DNA of 64,000 bases, taken from a virus. Below the pieces are notes generated by a model. That model was given only the letters and a program-made list of their open reading frames with translations, made no database searches and was not told the DNA's origin. The stretch lies in the IMG/VR virus record IMGVR_UViG_3300025065_000001, positions 16,545-80,544 of that record; one strand, given 5' to 3'. This document shows positions 13,156 through 57,622 of the stretch, piece after piece (the first letter of the stretch is position 1; each line of letters begins with the position of its first letter). Position numbers and translations under genes: made by a program.

Positions 13156-13184
13156 TTGACAATAAAATTGTGTGTCCGTAATAT
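13156..13184 (+). promoter_or_regulatory. Sigma70-type promoter of the putative sRNA
   Basis: The -35 is a perfect TTGACA (13156-13161), the spacer is exactly 17 bases, and the -10 is TAATAT (13179-13184), with AT-rich sequence upstream. It is the best promoter I can see in the window and lies inside an otherwise co-directional late tail operon. Transcription would start near 13191. Nothing about the core suggests dependence on a phage activator, so it may be active in the lysogen. Confidence 0.82.
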
Positions 13185-13190
13185 TGACCT

Positions 13191-13269
13191 CGGTTAGTAG
13201 TCCAAGTGGCTCCTAATTATCGTCAATTTCCAAATCAACGCCTCAGCCTTGCTGGGGTGTTCTGTTTTT
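13191..13269 (+). ncRNA. Putative trans-acting phage sRNA complementary to the start boxes
   Basis: The locus is about 79 nt, from the predicted start to the U-rich end. A 5' hairpin comes first: 13194-13197 pairs with 13213-13216, and 13199-13202 with 13208-13211, with a 5-base loop. Next is an unpaired region whose ATCGTCAATTTCC (13219-13231) is the exact reverse complement of the start box; complementarity reaches 17 bases (13219-13235) against the excisionase, ligase and DUF3560 gene starts. A terminator hairpin ends it. No convincing coding frame fits the interval. Stem, free seed, terminator with U tail is the standard layout of Hfq/ProQ-class sRNAs. Pairing would cover ribosome site and start codon, so repression is the simplest prediction. 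Expression is not shown by sequence. Confidence 0.72.
13239..13269 (+). terminator. Rho-independent terminator of the sRNA
   Basis: CGCCTCAG (13239-13246) pairs with CTGGGGTG (13252-13259), including two G-U pairs, around the loop CCTTG. TTCTGTTTTT follows. The bases 13237-13242 can alternatively pair with GGCGTT at 13271-13276, which would break this hairpin. Termination may therefore be partial or switchable, feeding the downstream L-like gene. Confidence 0.68.
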
Positions 13270-13338
13270 GGGCGTTTGAAAAATATTCAATCTATTCCTC
13301 TTTTCGGTATACTAAGCGAAAATTGAGGGAAATTGACG

Positions 13339-15423: not shown

Positions 15424-18400
15424 GTGACGCATAACACGTTCAAGGGCCGCGGAGGGGGTAGTGGACCCTCGAATGACGCGGACAACCTATTTTCTACAGA
15501 CGCATTTGAGTTTGTCCTTGGGATATCCGAAGGGCCGATAGGCGGCGTTGTGGGAGATACCCCCGAAGAAAAGCTTCGCAATATCTTTATCGACGACACC
15601 CCAGTCTTTAACAGCCTCAATCAAACAAACTTTGATAACGCCAGCTTAATGCTGCGTTTCGAGCAAGGTACCTTAATTTCAGCTAAGGACGACCCCGAAG
15701 AAGGGCAGACCCCTATTTGGTTTGGTCTGGGTGGCCAGAACGTCATTCAGCAAGTGTCGGCAAACCTAGCATATCAGGCTCCAATAACTAGAGTTACTGT
15801 ACCCACTGTAGCGGGATTTGACGAAATTGAATTGCGGTTCACCGTGTCTCAGTTAGTCAAATATACGGATGATGGCTCTAAAAGGCATAGTGCGAATTTC
15901 AGAATCCAATACAAGAACCTATTGGATGATAACTGGAATACAAAAACTATGACCATTTCAGGTAAAACCACGGTTAGTCCTTTTGTGAAAGTTCACAATA
16001 TACGGATGGCCAGAACCAAGCCTGAAGACCAGTTTGAAATTAAAGTTACTCGTCTTACTGAAGATTCTAATGAGGAAGAAGTAGCGGCGATATCTTGGAC
16101 CAGTTATGAACTACTTACCAAATCTGGGGATGCCTACACCGACAATGGGGTTGAATATAGCGACCCCGATTTAGAGTACCACCCTGGACTTGCGATGATG
16201 CACGTTGTGGGTGTTCTCGGCCAGCAGCTCACCAGTATCCCTAACGTAAGCGCGAATTACGATGGTATTAAGTGTTCAGTTCCTTCGAACTATGACCCAA
16301 AGACTAAAACCTATGAAGAAAGCTCAGCATGGGATGGGCAATTTAAAGCTGAAAAGTCTACTACGGATAATCCTTTTTGGATTGCACACGAGCTGGTTAC
16401 TAATCCAGTGTGGGGTATTGTCAAAGCCAATCCACGGGTAAAGATAAATCGCTATAACGTCTATCGAATGGCGAAATATGCGGACGGTTATGACCTTCAA
16501 ACCAACGAAAAGAACTTAACTAATCCGATTACAGGTCAGGAGAAAGCCCCGCGCTACGCCTTCAATGCCGTATTAACTGAGCCTCAAAATGGTTGGGACG
16601 TTCTTCGTTATGTTTTAGGTAGTGCTTTCGCTAGGCCTATTGAAGAAGACTCGGGCGAAATAAAGTTTATCGCGGATTTGCCGGATCTTCCTGTTGCGTG
16701 GGTTACTCCTGAAATGTGCGTGGCCGAGACCGATGGCTCCCCGTTTTCTTATAATTTCTCTGCCTTATCTGAGCGTCACAATGCGGTGACTTCCAGTTAT
16801 ATCGACGCATCTTTGGACTACCAACAACAGTACGTTGCTGAGATACGTGATGAAGACTCCATTCTAAAATACGGGCTAAACACACATGAGTTTGATGCTA
16901 AAGGCGCGACTGATGTGTGGGAAGTGAAACGACGAATGACGTTTTACATATCATCCGTAACGACTGAAGTTAGAACGGTTTCGTTCTCTGCCCCTCAACT
17001 GGGGATGGAGTTTGAACCGATGGATATTATTAACATCGTAGATCCTGAAACAGGCCATGCCTATTCTGGTAGGGCTGTGAAGTTAGAGAGCAAGGCTGTC
17101 ACACTTCGAGACCCTGTGTATTTTGATGAAGGCGGCACCTATAACGTAAAAGTTATGGGTAAGTACGAGAATTTTGACTTCACTATCGATGTGCTGTCTT
17201 CGGATGTTGGCCGACCTATTTACCGGCTAAAACTAAAACAGCCAATGCCAGAGCTTACACTTTTTAATAAGTATGCACCGGTTGTTGTTTCGGCATCTAA
17301 GAATGGTCAGCTTATAGGTCTACCTAAGCCTTGGCGCATCATAAGTGTTACTGAAAACGACAGCGTACCCGAGCTCTACGATTTCTTTTGTCAGGAAGTA
17401 AACCTAAACAAGCATGGTGACGCTGACAACCTAATTATTTCTGAAGCTCCTAAATACTCGTTTCTTCTGAGACCACAAGTTCGCAAGGTTAAGAACCTTC
17501 GCGTTTTGGATGAAGAGCATATTCAGGTTCGTGGAGTAGAGCAGATAAACCTTTGGATTGGTTGGGAGCTAGAGGCCCCTTTACCGCCAGGGGGTTATTT
17601 TGAAGTTCGTATTACAGAACAATCGGTTAATGGCCGAGAGTACACCACGAAAACCAACAACCTTTATTTCGAGATTCAGAACGTAAAATTAGGCGATATC
17701 CAAATTGAGGTACGTAGTGCCCAAGGGGACAACGCTAGTCCATGGACCGTTCTGCAATGGTCTACAACTATGGTATCCGCTGAAGATTTGAGAGACGCGG
17801 GTATCACCCCAGAAATCACTATTCGCTATGAGAACTATGCCCTAACTATTGATAGTAAAGTAATGTTTGACTTTGGCTCTACAGAAGTTAACCGCGTTAA
17901 CTTACTTGAGACAAATGGTGTGTTGGGTATTCAGTTTAAGATATACGACGATGTGGACCCAGATAACCGCGTACACCTTTTGACCAAGACCGCAAAGTCT
18001 TCGCTAATTATCCCTAAAAGCGAGTTCGAGGTTGCTGTTGAAGGTAAGGAACTGCCTTCTGATTTATATATTACAGCACGCGTTGTGGATCTTGTCGGAG
18101 GCTTTTACCCCGACCTATTCCAAAGCCCTCTAGCATTCCAAGTAAGTAACCCCGCGCAAGAGATAACGAACTTAAGCTATCAATACGTTTTCTCTGATGA
18201 AGACCCGCATTTGGTAACGTGGGATGATAACAACTATGGGTATGAAATCACGCTTTATAAGCCGGATGGCCAGAGCGAGATTTCTAGTTACAAGATATAT
18301 GACAGTAGCCAAGTATTCGGGTTCTTACGAGCAGCCGAAGGTTATGTCGTAAAAGTTAAGGGTTTTACTAATACACTTAGCTACGGCAAGCCTAAGACGA

Positions 18401-28340: not shown

Positions 28341-28902
28341 CTACTCCGCAGACCCAAGAGTTCAGGCTTATATCGCGCAAATTGTGAAACTAGAAGCGGG
28401 GTACGTAGATAATCCTCGCGATAAAGGTGGGCCTACGAACTGGGGAATTACTGAAAAGGTTGCACGCGCTCACGGTTACACTGGCGCTATGAAAGATATG
28501 CCGCAATCCAAAGCCCGAGAAATCTACTTACAGACCTATTGGTTTGGCCCTCGTATCTCGGAGCTGGCTTCGGTAAGCCCTGAGATAGCGTGGGAGGTGT
28601 TTGAAGCTGGGGTGAATCTTGGTACCGGTACAGGGATTAAGTTTCTGCAGCGTGCGTTGAATGCCTTTAATAAGATGCAAACCATCTACATCGATATAAA
28701 GGTGGATGGGATATTTGGTAGCAAAACTCTAAAGGCCCTGCAGCTTTACTTTGCTTATCGTAAAGGCTTGGCCGAACCGGTTCTATTGAAAGCGCTCAAT
28801 TGTTTACAAGGGGCCTATTATTTAGAACTGGCCGAATCCCGAGAGACAGATGAAACGTTTGTCTTTGGTTGGATAAATAAGCGCATAGCGCTAAGAGATT
28901 GA
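28333..28902 (+). CDS. Endolysin, GH108-type muramidase
   Basis: A 189-residue lysozyme-like enzyme. The glycosyl hydrolase 108 signature LEAGYVDNPRDKGGPTNWGI holds the catalytic Glu at about residue 18. A C-terminal part (KVDGIFGSKTLKAL) is a peptidoglycan-binding domain. It would cut the glycan backbone for lysis. There is no signal peptide, so release depends on a holin. The last codons overlap a box at 28895-28906. Confidence 0.9.
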   Translation: MANYSADPRVQAYIAQIVKLEAGYVDNPRDKGGPTNWGITEKVARAHGYTGAMKDMPQSKAREIYLQTYWFGPRISELASVSPEIAWEVFEAGVNLGTGTGIKFLQRALNAFNKMQTIYIDIKVDGIFGSKTLKALQLYFAYRKGLAEPVLLKALNCLQGAYYLELAESRETDETFVFGWINKRIALRD

Positions 28903-29384: not shown

Positions 29385-29446
29385 ACCTTTCGGTACTGGT
29401 AAAAGAGGTAAGTTGTTGATTTGTACCCTCTTTGTACCTTCTTGTT

Positions 29447-29477
29447 TGGTGGAGCTGGCGGGATTTGAACCCGCGTC
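29447..29477 (-). other. attP core: copy of the ssrA (tmRNA) 3' end
   Basis: Read on the minus strand, the 31 bases run GACGCGGGTTCAAATCCCGC then CAGCTCCACCA: a T-arm, acceptor strand and CCA end. This equals the usual tmRNA 3' end of gammaproteobacteria. There is no matching tRNA body nearby, so it is not a phage tRNA. Integration would restore the host ssrA 3' end. The position next to the integrase end supports attP. Confidence 0.85.
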
Positions 29478-29486
29478 GATTATTTC

Positions 29487-30725
29487 CTAAATAGCTGATA
29501 AGCTTGGTTTTTTATTCGTGCCATTGGTATCTCGTGCCGCACTCGTGTCATTTTGGATTTTTTTCTCGTAATCCTCGATGAATTTACCGTAGTGTCGAAA
29601 TAGCATTTCTGGCGAAGAGTGGCCCATCCAATTTGCCAACTGCCACAAGTTAATTCCCTCACTAATATGTCGAGTCGCGAAAGTGTGACGCATTTGATAC
29701 GGGTACCGGTATCTTACTTTTGCAGCGGTAAGAATTCGACTCCATTTGTGTTTACGAAATGAGTCTGGGTTTATCCGGTTCAACTCCCCCTCTGGCAGTT
29801 CCATTCCAAACTTTAAGTTTTTAGGGAACACAAAACCGCGACCCAGATAGGAAAGTTCTCTTTGCCGGTTAAGGGCATTCATCGCGCTTTCATTTAAAGG
29901 TATGGCACGTTTACCGGCTTTTGATTTTGGACCCTTGATCTCGTTATGCACAATGGCCGCTTTTACGACTAAGGTGTTGTGAATGAAATCGACTTCGTTC
30001 CACTTAAGCGCCGACCATTCACTAGGCCGCATCCCCGTATTGAAAACCAGCTCAACAATATTTAGCTCTTCCGGTCTGCAATGCTCATAGATTGCTTCGA
30101 CTTCTTGTGGTGTGAACGGGTCGATATCATCGTGGCCACCGTCTAAATCTACCTTGTTATCTTTTTCTACGTAGTTAGAAAGCTTCACACCATCAATCGG
30201 ATTGGTTGGTACCAGTCCGTCAGTCACAGCTTCGGCCAGTGCAGTACGTAAAAAGCTGAACTTGTTTCGCAGTGTTTTAGGTGAGTTCCCAGACTTGAGA
30301 ACAAAGCTTTTCAAAACTTGCGGCGAGAGCTCGGTCACAGGGATAGGGTGGAGTTCCTTAACCGAGGTCTTCAGTTTTTCGTAGCCTTTAATAGTAGAAG
30401 GTGAGAGCCCCCGTTTCTTGACGCTCTCAATATATTCCTCCAAGTACGCTTCAACAGTCTTGCCCCACGCTACAGCGCCACCGAATATTTTTAGCTTTGG
30501 TGAGCTGGGGAAGTAGTCCGCGTATCGGAAAGTTTCACGCTCAATTTTATTTAATATCTCACCGCGTAAGTTACCCGCGTATTTGATATTTGATTTGTTG
30601 ACTGGAACCTTAAGGAGTTCGCGGCAGCGAACCCCTTTATATTCGAAGTTAATTTGAATACGGTCTTCTTTGGCCCCAGGCCTAATAGTTACCCCGCGAG
30701 GGAGTTGCCCCCATTTCTTATCCAT
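29487..30725 (-). CDS. int: Tyrosine recombinase integrase
   Basis: A 412-residue enzyme. It has an N-terminal arm-binding domain of the DUF3596 type (GVTIRPGAKEDRIQINFEYK), then a core-binding SAM-like domain (VEAYLEEYIESVKKRGLSPS), then the catalytic domain. The catalytic Arg is in NTGMRPSEWSALKW, a Lys in KSKAGKRAIPL, the H-x-x-R box in QMRHTFATRHI, then GHSSPEMLFRHYGKF with the nucleophile Tyr. It should insert the phage at ssrA. The 3' end lies beside the attP core, and the start is inside the excisionase gene. Confidence 0.93.
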   Translation of the reverse strand: MDKKWGQLPRGVTIRPGAKEDRIQINFEYKGVRCRELLKVPVNKSNIKYAGNLRGEILNKIERETFRYADYFPSSPKLKIFGGAVAWGKTVEAYLEEYIESVKKRGLSPSTIKGYEKLKTSVKELHPIPVTELSPQVLKSFVLKSGNSPKTLRNKFSFLRTALAEAVTDGLVPTNPIDGVKLSNYVEKDNKVDLDGGHDDIDPFTPQEVEAIYEHCRPEELNIVELVFNTGMRPSEWSALKWNEVDFIHNTLVVKAAIVHNEIKGPKSKAGKRAIPLNESAMNALNRQRELSYLGRGFVFPKNLKFGMELPEGELNRINPDSFRKHKWSRILTAAKVRYRYPYQMRHTFATRHISEGINLWQLANWMGHSSPEMLFRHYGKFIEDYEKKIQNDTSAARDTNGTNKKPSLSAI

Positions 30726-35282: not shown

Positions 35283-35789
35283 TTATTTTGTTTTATTTAG
35301 AGTTAATACTCTTTTAGGTTTATCACCTTTATCATCTGATGTTGACTGGCGTGTGCCGCGTCCCACTTTCTGATTTATGATAATCCCTTGCTTCTTGTTC
35401 TTACGTCGAGAGCGTAAGTACATAGAATGTAGTTCAACCATTCTCTTACGAGCATGGTCTGCTTCGGATTCGGTTACTCTACCGTCAGGCTTTCCCCAGA
35501 GGTTAAAGCGCTGGGCACCAGTACGAATACGATTGAGGTATTTTATAGAATTAACGTGAAAGCCTATCGCATCGTATAGTTCTCTTGAGCTGACTTTCTT
35601 AGGAGAAATAACCGCACGAAGTTGCTCATAAATATCCCTACTTAACGGTTTGTTAGTTAAGATTCGGAATTTATTTTTACGACAATAGGTGACCACCCAA
35701 AGCCAGCAATGGATAGGTTTTTCAAATTGTAATTTTTTAGAATTATATTTAAGGCTTACACCTTCAATTCCAAAAGTGGCGTTATCCAT
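35283..35789 (-). CDS. ProQ/FinO-family RNA chaperone
   Basis: A 168-residue protein. Residues about 25-125 match the ProQ/FinO domain in order: KPLSRDIYEQL, SSRELYDAIGFHVNSIKYLNRI, the TGAQRFNLWGKPDGRVTESE block and ADHARKRMVEL. In E. coli ProQ the matching parts include PLKIGIFQDLV, GATRVDLDGNPCGEL and HVEHARKQL. The C-terminal 45 residues are basic and probably disordered. ProQ/FinO proteins bind the terminator hairpins of sRNAs and promote pairing with mRNAs. In this genome the obvious partner is the sRNA at 13191-13269. ATG 35789 lacks a strong ribosome site. Its box is decayed (GAATTGACGAG, without the GG), so it may escape the control it helps impose. Confidence 0.85.
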   Translation of the reverse strand: MDNATFGIEGVSLKYNSKKLQFEKPIHCWLWVVTYCRKNKFRILTNKPLSRDIYEQLRAVISPKKVSSRELYDAIGFHVNSIKYLNRIRTGAQRFNLWGKPDGRVTESEADHARKRMVELHSMYLRSRRKNKKQGIIINQKVGRGTRQSTSDDKGDKPKRVLTLNKTK

Positions 35790-35816
35790 GCTCAACTCGT
35801 CAATTCATATTTTAAA

Positions 35817-54498: not shown

Positions 54499-55134
54499 TC
54501 AATAAAGCGCTAGGATAGTTTTTAAATCGTGGTGTCTTGCCTGAACTCTCGTTCCTGTTACCGCTTCAAAATGGTTTAAGGGTAAACGGTACTTCCTAGC
54601 AAAGTACTGGCAATATTCACTACGCTTAACAAGATACTTTTGGTAACGGTCACCTTTAATCTCTTCATGCCTACGCTCTCCATAGACACTTTCAAAGTAA
54701 CTATAAACGTGTGCCGGAAGATGCCAATATCGTGAGGGGTAGTGAAACATAGGGTTCGCCCAATTCAGCGTTTCACTATCCATCGTCTTTTGTTTTCCTG
54801 GGGGCCAGAGCGGATAAGTTATCAATAAGTAATCAGGATAAAGTAAACACCACATCATTTTACTTACCTGAATATTTATCTTTTGGCCTTTCACATCGAT
54901 AATTAGACGAGACTTTTCAAGCCTCGTCTCTAGGTTCCCCCAAGTCTTCACATGCCAGAAGTCTTCTCGCGCTAACTTCAGTTCCTCATCCCAGTCTAAA
55001 TCTGGGAACTTATTTTCAACATACGCTTTCAGCTTTTTGTAAATAAGGTGAACGAAAGGCGCATCGAAAGACTTATCCCAATAGAACAAGCTACGCTGTA
55101 ATCGAAAAACATTATCACGACGTAGCTGGGCCAT
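54499..55134 (-). CDS. Unknown protein next to ligase
   Basis: A 211-residue protein rich in aromatic residues and histidine (FWHVKTWGNLETRLEK, FHYPSRYWHLPAHVYSYFE). Its start overlaps the ligase stop (TAATG). Function unknown; a DNA-processing role is only suggested by position. Confidence 0.55.
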   Translation of the reverse strand: MAQLRRDNVFRLQRSLFYWDKSFDAPFVHLIYKKLKAYVENKFPDLDWDEELKLAREDFWHVKTWGNLETRLEKSRLIIDVKGQKINIQVSKMMWCLLYPDYLLITYPLWPPGKQKTMDSETLNWANPMFHYPSRYWHLPAHVYSYFESVYGERRHEEIKGDRYQKYLVKRSEYCQYFARKYRLPLNHFEAVTGTRVQARHHDLKTILALY

Positions 55135-56309
55135 TACAGGTCCTCACGAATACGAGAATTAGTGATATGGCAGGGCTTACCTTCTTTAGTGTATCCATAT
55201 GAGAACACGGTGAGTTTCTTGCCGATATTCTTATGCCCGTTCATAGCATGATCGTGTTTCTCATTCGCATCACCTGGCGCCGTAACATCAAAGGTCTTGC
55301 CATCTGCCGTTTGACAGACATATATACCTACCTCGGTACCTAGGCGCTTATTAGGCTTACCTTTGCGAATCCCGATAATCTCAAACTCCGCGTCTTCTTC
55401 GTCCTTACGCTTCATCAAAGATGCGCTGCGTTTATCCGTTTCGTAAGGGGCATCCCCTTGGCGAACCATCGTACCTTCATAACCGTTAGAGGTCCAAGAA
55501 GCATGGTAGTTGTCGATACCCGCCTGATCATTAACTTTGTAACAGGCCGTTAAACACAGGGTGGGGTAGGAGCTTTCAGTTATACGAGAGTCCAAGTAAT
55601 CAAATCTATCAGCGTAAGGAAGATCAAGAACAACGTCATAAATATTGTACGACAGGTATTTACTGTCTTCTTGTGGCTTCTTGATGAGGCTAGAAATATT
55701 TTCAAAGGCTTTACCATGGCAGTAAAGCTCACCATCCAAGGTTGTGCCATCCCAAATACCTCTGTCATAAAGAAACTGTAAGCGTTCCATGATGTGAACA
55801 ACCGTGATTGGCTTCCCGCCACGAGAGTAAAGGAACACCTTTTCTTCTTGTATGGTGGCAAGACAGCGGTGGCCATCCATTTTAGGCTGAACAAATATAG
55901 GGAATTCCCAGTCTTTTACTTTATCAATTGGCTGGGCCAACATAGGTTTTACCAAGCCTAAGGCATTGGTGACCGCTGCACCTTCCTCAGGTTGCTCTTC
56001 AACATAGCCTTTATCCAGTTGTTTTTTGACTTTGCTTTGCGCTTCAAACACGGCTTGCATAATTGGCGTGGTTTCATTACTGCGGCCAATGTTCTTGCCT
56101 TCAGTGTAATCCGTTGCGGTTTCAACGCCTTTACCACCTAAGACCTTGCGAGAGGTAACAAGCGTGCTAGCGGTATCGTCGGGGTTAAGCGTAACCTTGA
56201 TATGCCAAGAACCTACTTTTCCGCCCGAATGGACTTTAAATAGTGTTTGTTCAAAGCGAACGTCGGCATCTAAAGAAGTAGTGCTAGAGGTATTAGCAGG
56301 GATATTCAT
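55134..56309 (-). CDS. ATP-dependent DNA ligase with N-terminal WGR-like domain
   Basis: A 391-residue ligase. The catalytic Lys is in VQPKMDGHRC; other blocks are TLDGELY, GYEGTMVR and SLMKRKDEED; an OB-type domain ends the protein. The first 95 residues (SWHIKVTLNPDD, GKNIGRSNETTPIMQAVFEA, KKQLDKGYVEE) resemble a WGR domain, a nucleic-acid-binding module also found in PARPs. It joins nicks in replicating DNA. First gene leftward of the control region; ATG 56309 with a perfect box and a 17-base sRNA match. Confidence 0.88.
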   Translation of the reverse strand: MNIPANTSSTTSLDADVRFEQTLFKVHSGGKVGSWHIKVTLNPDDTASTLVTSRKVLGGKGVETATDYTEGKNIGRSNETTPIMQAVFEAQSKVKKQLDKGYVEEQPEEGAAVTNALGLVKPMLAQPIDKVKDWEFPIFVQPKMDGHRCLATIQEEKVFLYSRGGKPITVVHIMERLQFLYDRGIWDGTTLDGELYCHGKAFENISSLIKKPQEDSKYLSYNIYDVVLDLPYADRFDYLDSRITESSYPTLCLTACYKVNDQAGIDNYHASWTSNGYEGTMVRQGDAPYETDKRSASLMKRKDEEDAEFEIIGIRKGKPNKRLGTEVGIYVCQTADGKTFDVTAPGDANEKHDHAMNGHKNIGKKLTVFSYGYTKEGKPCHITNSRIREDL

Positions 56310-56539
56310 ATCGTCAATTTCCAAATTTTAAAGTTAAGCCAGTAGGCAAAGTTAAAACTACGCTTTCAACTTTTGTATATCAAGTTAAAAACGAAGTCCG
56401 TCTACAAAAACACAATTTATTTGTGTTTTTAATATTTATTAAAAAAATATGCTTTCTTTAATTTATTTAATTGGTTAGAATTTGTTCGTTTTGTTTTGTA
56501 GTAAAAGATTTACATTATGGCCTTGATGGAGTACTCGCC
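56310..56539. promoter_or_regulatory. Divergent control region between ligase and HTH regulator
   Basis: About 230 AT-rich bases between leftward and rightward units. A perfect inverted repeat AAAAACACAA-TTTAT-TTGTGTTTTT lies at 56406-56430 and is a likely operator. AAAGTT and AACTTT face each other at 56348-56373, and AAGTTAAAA recurs. A possible leftward promoter is TTGATA with 17-base spacing to a poor TAGTTT (56355-56383). I could not find a convincing rightward promoter. Confidence 0.55.
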
Positions 56540-56860
56540 GTGTCTAAGAAAATTGACGATAATATAGAACCACCATGGGAGCTAGAGCGCCGTAGGCGAA
56601 TAGCTCGAAAATTTAAAAATATGCGCCAGAATTATCGATTGACGCAAGAAGAACTCGCTATTGCTGCGGACGTTCACAAGAATACTATTTCAAATGCTGA
56701 GCGATACGGCAAAATCTCCACTGAAGAATTCTACAAATATCAACAAATTGCAAAACGCGCTCACATGAAGAAGGGACTCGGTGCGGTAGTGAGTAAAATT
56801 ACCTTATCGGATATCCCATTCTCGGATTTTAAAAGATTCTTAGCGACGTTTTGGGAGTAA
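56540..56860 (+). CDS. HTH regulator, candidate lysogeny repressor
   Basis: A 106-residue protein with a helix-turn-helix at about residues 36-58 (RLTQEELAIAADVHKNTISNA) and a C-terminal helical part. It lacks the peptidase domain of LexA/CI repressors, so RecA-driven self-cleavage is unlikely. I place the start at GTG 56540 with GGAG 8 bases upstream. The box core AAATTGACGATAAT lies within codons 4-8 (14 contiguous bases complementary to the sRNA), so its mRNA may also be a target. It would be transcribed against the long leftward region, as expected for a repressor. Confidence 0.72.
   Translation: MSKKIDDNIEPPWELERRRRIARKFKNMRQNYRLTQEELAIAADVHKNTISNAERYGKISTEEFYKYQQIAKRAHMKKGLGAVVSKITLSDIPFSDFKRFLATFWE
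56550..56560 (+). promoter_or_regulatory. Start-box core inside the repressor coding sequence
   Basis: AAATTGACGAT lies 10-20 bases after the GTG start, within reach of sRNAs that block initiation (up to about codon 5). It encodes K-I-D-D here. The same amino-acid string appears in the long-start readings of several box genes, but in this gene it is real coding sequence. Confidence 0.5.
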
Positions 56861-56863
56861 TTT

Positions 56864-57622
56864 ATGTATCGTCACTTCTTTAAAACTTATGGTTTACGGT
56901 TCGCGCTATTCGTTTCAGCATTGCTAATTTTCACGGCTGTTCTAAACAATTTTCTAGTTGAGGGCAAATGGCAACTAAACTCACTGTCCGATATGCTCAG
57001 CTACTACGCGGTGATGTTTTCATGCGTTATCTTAGCTGGCGTAATGGTTAAGGGTTTCAATAATCGTATCGTTTTGGCTTTGATCATAATTGCTTCAATC
57101 TCTGAACAGGCGATTGCCAGCCTAATGTTTACGCTAAGTCCTACACTCCATACCGCTATTGCCATGATTTATGTGCCAGGTATTCTAACCATGGTGATGT
57201 ACCAGTATCGGGTTAAGTTCCAGTTTTGGGTGGCAAACAGACTCATCAAGTCTGAGCGCTTTCGTGACACCGGCTTTAATTTGCTAGAAAAGACCGAGGA
57301 CACGAATCTAGGTACATGGTTGTGTATGGTGTATAAGCTGTGCTGGTTTATCTGTTTTGCTATTGCGGTTTACTACCACATATTCACGATACATTTTGGT
57401 ATTCATGAAACAGGCCCACTACTTTATGGTTATCGTCTCGTTGATATTGAGTACGCGCTACACTTACCTAGCTTCTATTTTCTGTTTAATATCGTCTTTA
57501 TTACTCAGACTGTTATGTTGCTTATGCTGTTGTTCCACGCAAGTATTCAAGAGTTCTACGTTAAAGATCTTGCTGGGGCTATACCTAAGAAATTGGAAGT
57601 ACTATTTAAAAGAGCGGCTTAG
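56864..57622 (+). CDS. Multi-span membrane protein, possible lysogenic conversion gene
   Basis: A 252-residue protein with about six membrane segments (FALFVSALLIFTAVLNNF, VMFSCVILAGVMV, IVLALIIIASI, LCWFICFAIAVYY, FLFNIVFITQTVMLLMLLF and one more). It lies 3 bases after the HTH regulator and shares its terminator, so it is probably expressed in the lysogen. Superinfection exclusion or host surface change are plausible, not shown. Confidence 0.65.
   Translation: MYRHFFKTYGLRFALFVSALLIFTAVLNNFLVEGKWQLNSLSDMLSYYAVMFSCVILAGVMVKGFNNRIVLALIIIASISEQAIASLMFTLSPTLHTAIAMIYVPGILTMVMYQYRVKFQFWVANRLIKSERFRDTGFNLLEKTEDTNLGTWLCMVYKLCWFICFAIAVYYHIFTIHFGIHETGPLLYGYRLVDIEYALHLPSFYFLFNIVFITQTVMLLMLLFHASIQEFYVKDLAGAIPKKLEVLFKRAA

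Follow-up and report, generated by a model that had tools for sequence, protein, structure and literature searches.

RegA of phage T4 is a protein that represses translation at the starts of many phage mRNAs. The open literature describes phage sRNAs that have one target or a few (OOP, sar, PreS and VpdS, with C4 named among cited references), and multi-target control that is protein-based, as for RegA. OOP of lambda and sar of P22 are antisense RNAs that each act on the mRNA of one lysis-lysogeny regulator, and sar blocks translation initiation of ant (PMC12197685). VpdS of vibriophage VP882 is an sRNA that acts in trans, together with host Hfq, on mRNAs of both phage and host and influences the lytic programme (PMC12197685). 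FinO-FinP and FopA-Inc on plasmids and RocC-RocR in Legionella combine a FinO/ProQ protein with a terminator-bearing antisense RNA, and the known plasmid-encoded members of this protein family have, with rare exceptions, one target each (PMC9977716). For pairing near a start codon, the published zone in which initiation is blocked is the 'five codon window' (+1 to +15), as cited in PMC9486967.

The DNA analysed here, which we refer to as the window, is a stretch of 64,000 nucleotides taken from a virus record of 80.5 kb (bases 16545-80544). A tyrosine integrase gene recognized by its domain match (29487..30725, minus strand), an adjoining attP-like sequence that resembles a tRNA 3′ end (about 29446-29488), and the integrated relative G004, which runs past the attP-like point into DNA without a match to the phage, indicate that this marine bacterial virus is temperate. 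The same terminase is present on a MAG contig of Alteromonadaceae. No tRNA genes were found in the window or in the other stretches scanned. The related phages comprise clade 1 (G000-G004) and clade 2 (G005, G006). One clade-2 phage encodes an Aca2/YdiL-like protein (L076 9212-9670, minus strand; PF08965, E = 8e-16) from a family that is associated with anti-CRISPR loci.

A candidate trans-acting sRNA and its boxes

The sRNA candidate, whose ends are inferred and whose structure is conserved according to folding and alignment, occupies 13189..13272 on the plus strand. The locus contains, in this order, a sigma70-type promoter found by consensus scan (TTGACA-17-TAATAT, 13156..13184, plus strand), a hairpin, the seed ATTATCGTCAATTTCCAAATC (13216..13236, plus strand), which sequence and covariation identify as complementary to the boxes, and an intrinsic terminator stem-loop found by terminator scan (13237..13261, plus strand). 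The candidate folds more stably than shuffled sequences (z = −3.8), and the structure predicted from aligned sequences of six phages has the seed ATCGTCAATTT unpaired. That alignment contains one terminator pair that is changed on both sides and two pairs that are changed on one side, and two weak closing pairs are lost from the sRNA of clade 2, in which part of the seed pairs with its own 5′ end when the RNA is folded alone. An Rfam search of the window returned no matches. As predicted from the scans and from folding, the transcript would come from a free-standing gene with its own promoter and intrinsic terminator, as expected of a trans-acting sRNA, and a cis-antisense RNA of the OOP type was ruled out because the sRNA (13189-13272) is not encoded opposite the repressor gene (56540-56860).

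The box core AAATTGACGAT has 20 exact copies in the window, one of them in the sRNA and one in the repressor gene; among the remainder, one lies shortly upstream of the gene at 15424 and the others stand directly at start codons. When variants are included, the genome contains 33 boxes at translation starts, located on both strands, and the seed is thus complementary to many unlinked mRNAs, with support from covariation, as in a trans-acting regulon. In clade 1 the seed carries an A, and the facing box base is T 168 times and C once. In clade 2 this A is replaced by G, and the boxes are divided between T (31) and C (29), either of which pairs with G. Reduced to one phage per clade, the T:C ratio is 33:0 versus 18:15 (P = 8e-6, which serves as a guide only, because the boxes of related phages share ancestry). 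In phage G012, with a terminase identity of 59%, an sRNA-like locus is accompanied by many boxes reading GGAATTGACGAT, a matched variant of sRNA and box. The view that the boxes would work by RNA pairing with the seed draws its strongest support from this covariation. The covariation also bears on a very improbable reading in which the box is bound by a protein that represses translation, as RegA does in T4, or is a ribosome-related element, with the antisense RNA in a secondary role; the position of the box at many translation starts resembles that of RegA sites, but between clades the changes in box and seed fit each other as base pairs, with G accepting both C and U.

Two further features of the boxes were observed. 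A second kind of target has the box upstream of a GG-rich, Shine-Dalgarno-like stretch (15401, 27463 and 28896, plus strand), and at 28896 the match extends across GGAGC, which pairs with GCTCC of the sRNA. The box consensus GGAAATTGACGAT resembles a universal stretch of 16S rRNA, GGAATTGACGG; the match is so short that this likeness is probably a coincidence.

A candidate sponge lies upstream of the window on the minus strand (L009, about 9447-9265): an RNA-like unit, recognized by its conservation and its terminator, that carries the box in the sense direction. No start codon follows its box, the relatives differ by frame-breaking indels, and the conserved unit appears to be a non-coding RNA with a terminator; its conserved promoter-like element, TTGACC...TATACTTTAG, was judged by eye and was not reported by the consensus scan. 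The unit is kept in clades 1 and 2, each time with the box base of its own clade. In G000, G001 and G004 it matches the sRNA over 19 nt, more than any other site; the match is 16 nt long in G003 and 12 nt in G005, where other sites are longer. This RNA (L009 9265-9447) has the appearance of an sRNA decoy. A candidate protein partner of the sRNA is a ProQ/FinO-family RNA chaperone (35283..35795, minus strand; PF04352, E = 7.5e-13, 48.9 bits with a cut-off of 27), relatives of which are encoded in G001-G005 and G011.

The repressor gene and the match in codons 4 to 8

The repressor gene (56540..56860, plus strand) was delimited by its open reading frame and domain matches, encodes an HTH_3-type protein of 106 aa from a GTG start, and is kept in 7 related phages; its Shine-Dalgarno sequence GGAG (56528..56531, plus strand) lies 8 nt upstream of the GTG. 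The HTH_3 match is weak (E = 9.2e-5, 22.8 bits, 0.2 bits short of the Pfam cut-off of 23), and the protein also matches a phage repressor PHROG (E = 2.7e-5). The first-pass annotation had called the protein a candidate lysogeny repressor without a self-cleaving domain, and both parts of that description are supported: the two matches place a helix-turn-helix in it, as in CI-like phage repressors, and its Pfam and PHROGs matches include no LexA/CI-type self-cleaving C-terminal domain. The AlphaFold model has a pLDDT of 54, and relatives were found neither in annotated phages nor in 84,980 genomes. Divergently oriented to the repressor gene is an operon that begins with an ATP-dependent DNA ligase gene (55134..56309, minus strand; PF01068, E = 1.2e-18), itself a box target with a canonical box at its start (56307..56320, minus strand), which was found in the box search of the window. 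On the other side, 3 bases past the repressor stop codon, begins a gene for a 252-aa protein without family matches (56864-57622, plus strand), which is membrane-like by eye and missing next to the clade-2 repressor. It probably shares the operon of the repressor and is possibly a lysogenic-conversion or exclusion gene.

The sRNA box AAATTGACGATAAT lies in codons 4-8 of the repressor gene (56550..56563, plus strand; CDS nt 11-24) as a perfect 14-nt match to the seed. The 14 contiguous complementary bases noted earlier at this site are confirmed (56550-56563). Elsewhere in the window AAATTGACGATAAT recurs exactly only once, as the reverse complement within the sRNA candidate (at 13216-13229), and with up to 3 mismatches there are 35 matches, compared with 9.1 ± 2.8 in shuffled sequences. 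The chance expectation for an exact copy of the 14-mer anywhere in the window is 0.0005, and for one gene start to match an RNA of 84 nt over 14 nt it is about 1e-5. Because a genome-wide ranking of duplex energies with a long seed was swamped by GC-rich matches, it was dropped, and contiguous matches and net energies at the known boxes were used. The best duplex of the repressor box with the seed has an energy of −28.6 kcal/mol, which none of 1000 shuffled seeds matched; the target is predicted to be accessible (opening cost, 0.6 kcal/mol), and its net pairing energy ranks third among 22 box targets.

The sequence AAAATTGACGATAA is present in the repressor gene of all five clade-1 phages. Codons 4-7 of the box are codon-invariant (4/4), versus 22 of 85 codons that lie outside the box core and encode an invariant amino acid (26%; P = 0.006), in a comparison of four distinct but related clade-1 sequences in which the signal of the box consists of four codons. 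No invariant run of the gene is longer than this block, even though codons 2, 3 and 8 vary. The match, reported at first from complementarity, is thus genuine also in its conservation at the nucleotide level, at silent sites in clade 1. These data argue against the match being a functionless accident of encoding Lys-Ile-Asp-Asp-Asn, to which we give little credence: the first residues of the repressor are poorly constrained and the box is absent from the sister clade, but the probability at one gene start is about 1e-5, as given above, and the silent sites of codons 4-7 are fixed while 74% of the other conserved codons vary. Because the clade-2 repressor, which is 69% identical and has the same recognition helix, is without a box (its longest exact pairing is 6 nt), the link between sRNA and repressor is clade-specific; the best gapped duplex of the clade-2 gene with the seed nevertheless beats most shuffles (P = 0.003).

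The position of the match agrees only in part with the earlier claim that it lies inside the window in which sRNAs can block initiation. The duplex, at +11 to +24, straddles the edge of the +1 to +15 zone rather than lying wholly inside it, and with its start only at +11 it is less central than in other boxed genes. The presence of a separate, apparently non-coding RNA with a box makes it plausible that titration operates in this phage, and the repressor mRNA, with its peripheral match, might pair with the sRNA but, like other box RNAs, mainly soak it up with little effect on the protein. We consider that use improbable for the repressor box, which is placed where pairing can hinder initiation, and a dedicated sponge candidate with a longer match (19 nt) already exists.

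Given this genuine match and its silent-site conservation, the RNA is likely to reduce the repressor. We favour, on balance, the reading that the exposed sRNA seed AUCGUCAAUUU pairs with the box at about 33 translation starts, that the repressor mRNA, with its box just past the start codon, is one of these targets, and that pairing would hinder 30S initiation and/or destabilise the mRNA, so that high levels of the sRNA would lower the repressor.

Operator-like palindromes and a possible reciprocal loop

We searched for repeated non-coding palindromes with no preset motif. This search recovered the CACAA-N5-TTGTG family and otherwise GC-rich hairpins and a few two-copy chance pairs. A candidate operator of this family lies between the ligase and repressor genes (56411..56425), and its arms are fixed and its centre variable in five phages. 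An operator-like palindrome, GACAA-N5-TTGTG (13158..13172; also ACAAT-N3-ATTGT at 13159), covers the −35 element and spacer of the sRNA promoter, where its chance occurrence with the hexamers fixed is 0.0014, and the TTGTG arm is retained in every clade-1 sRNA promoter seen. Two palindromes of the family, 56 bp apart, precede the leftmost operon (L009 9582 and 9638), likewise as a pair 56 bp apart in G003, and a conserved one-mismatch palindrome lies about 110 bp upstream of the start of a boxed gene (L009 6340). In all clade-1 phages a palindrome adjoins the repressor gene and another spans the −35 region of the sRNA. LexA-type boxes with at most one mismatch had 13 matches, fewer than the 22 expected, and none of them is at the switch.

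GC-rich hairpins reading GGGGGAGAACATTCCCCC, and variants of them, are repeated in non-coding DNA upstream of boxed genes (L009 1626, 7152, 7968 and 8199; window 58819). At comparable positions, the sequence in clade 2 is GTGGGG...CCCCAC.

The palindrome common to the repressor locus, two early-operon leaders and the sRNA promoter suggests mutual repression. If the repressor reads the palindrome at the sRNA promoter, then repressor and sRNA would repress each other, and the repressor may in this manner turn down the sRNA gene in return. In clade 2 the palindrome is present at the leftmost operon only, with none at the repressor locus or the sRNA promoter, and therefore another protein may be its reader; no common palindrome was found among the clade-2 control regions. 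An arrangement in which the pairing is real, the palindrome is read by another host or phage protein, and a steadily made sRNA only tunes the repressor without mutual repression seems somewhat unlikely to us. It would fit the sigma70-consensus-like promoter of the sRNA and the retention of the recognition helix in clade 2 without a palindrome at the repressor locus, but every clade-1 phage has the palindrome both next to its repressor gene and over the −35 region of the sRNA promoter.

The mutually repressing arrangement would work as follows. The repressor would bind CACAA-N5-TTGTG near its own gene, at the early operons and at the sRNA promoter, resulting in a double-negative loop with the sRNA; a drop in repressor would allow the sRNA to rise, and its re-synthesis would then be blocked. 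The same box is present in lytic genes, so that sRNA produced during lytic growth would restrain them too unless it were titrated. The sRNA may set a threshold that lytic mRNAs, aided by the sponge-like RNA, would have to exceed, with a timing that is conjectural. The complete toggle, in which repressor and sRNA repress each other within a phage-wide regulon that has its own sponge and a ProQ-type chaperone, is a possibility that we put forward tentatively. The first-pass annotation had proposed a switch in which repressor and lytic mRNAs compete for the same RNA; the sequence gives more direct indications of a possible reciprocal loop and of a separate sponge-like RNA.

Comparison with described systems

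The closest named phage found is Pseudoalteromonas phage KB12-38 (MF098558), the terminase of which is 50% identical and which resembles this phage in having an integrase, ProQ (by annotation), PolA and a herpes-type ori protein. It was ruled out as a box carrier because it has no enriched ATTGACGAT box. KB12-38 (L123/L124) carries a repeated palindrome, GGGGTAACGTTACCCC.

In the openly accessible literature, we found no phage sRNA that acts on a box at dozens of the phage's own starts including the repressor. The candidate resembles OOP and sar in being a phage antisense RNA that would pair with the mRNA of a lysis-lysogeny regulator, but each of those RNAs has a single target gene that adjoins or overlaps its own, whereas here about 33 starts on both strands would be addressed and the repressor itself lies 43 kb away. 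With VpdS it shares the property of a trans-acting phage sRNA; VpdS, however, works with host Hfq and is described without a common box at dozens of phage starts (PMC12197685), while the candidate partner here is a phage-encoded ProQ/FinO protein. FinO-type systems are similar as specialised control by a mobile element, but their plasmid members mostly have one target, compared with about 33 candidate targets and a putative protein-RNA pair here. Like T4 RegA, one regulator would act at many translation starts, by base pairing instead of as a protein.

Through a common box, one phage sRNA would thus act on the repressor as well as on about 33 other starts, in a candidate RNA-protein toggle that would offer an induction route for a repressor seemingly unable to cleave itself. 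Natural compensatory variants of seed and box make the pairing directly testable. The phage switches known so far consist of protein-protein circuits or of single-target antisense RNAs, and an sRNA acting at many starts, including that of the repressor, would differ from both.
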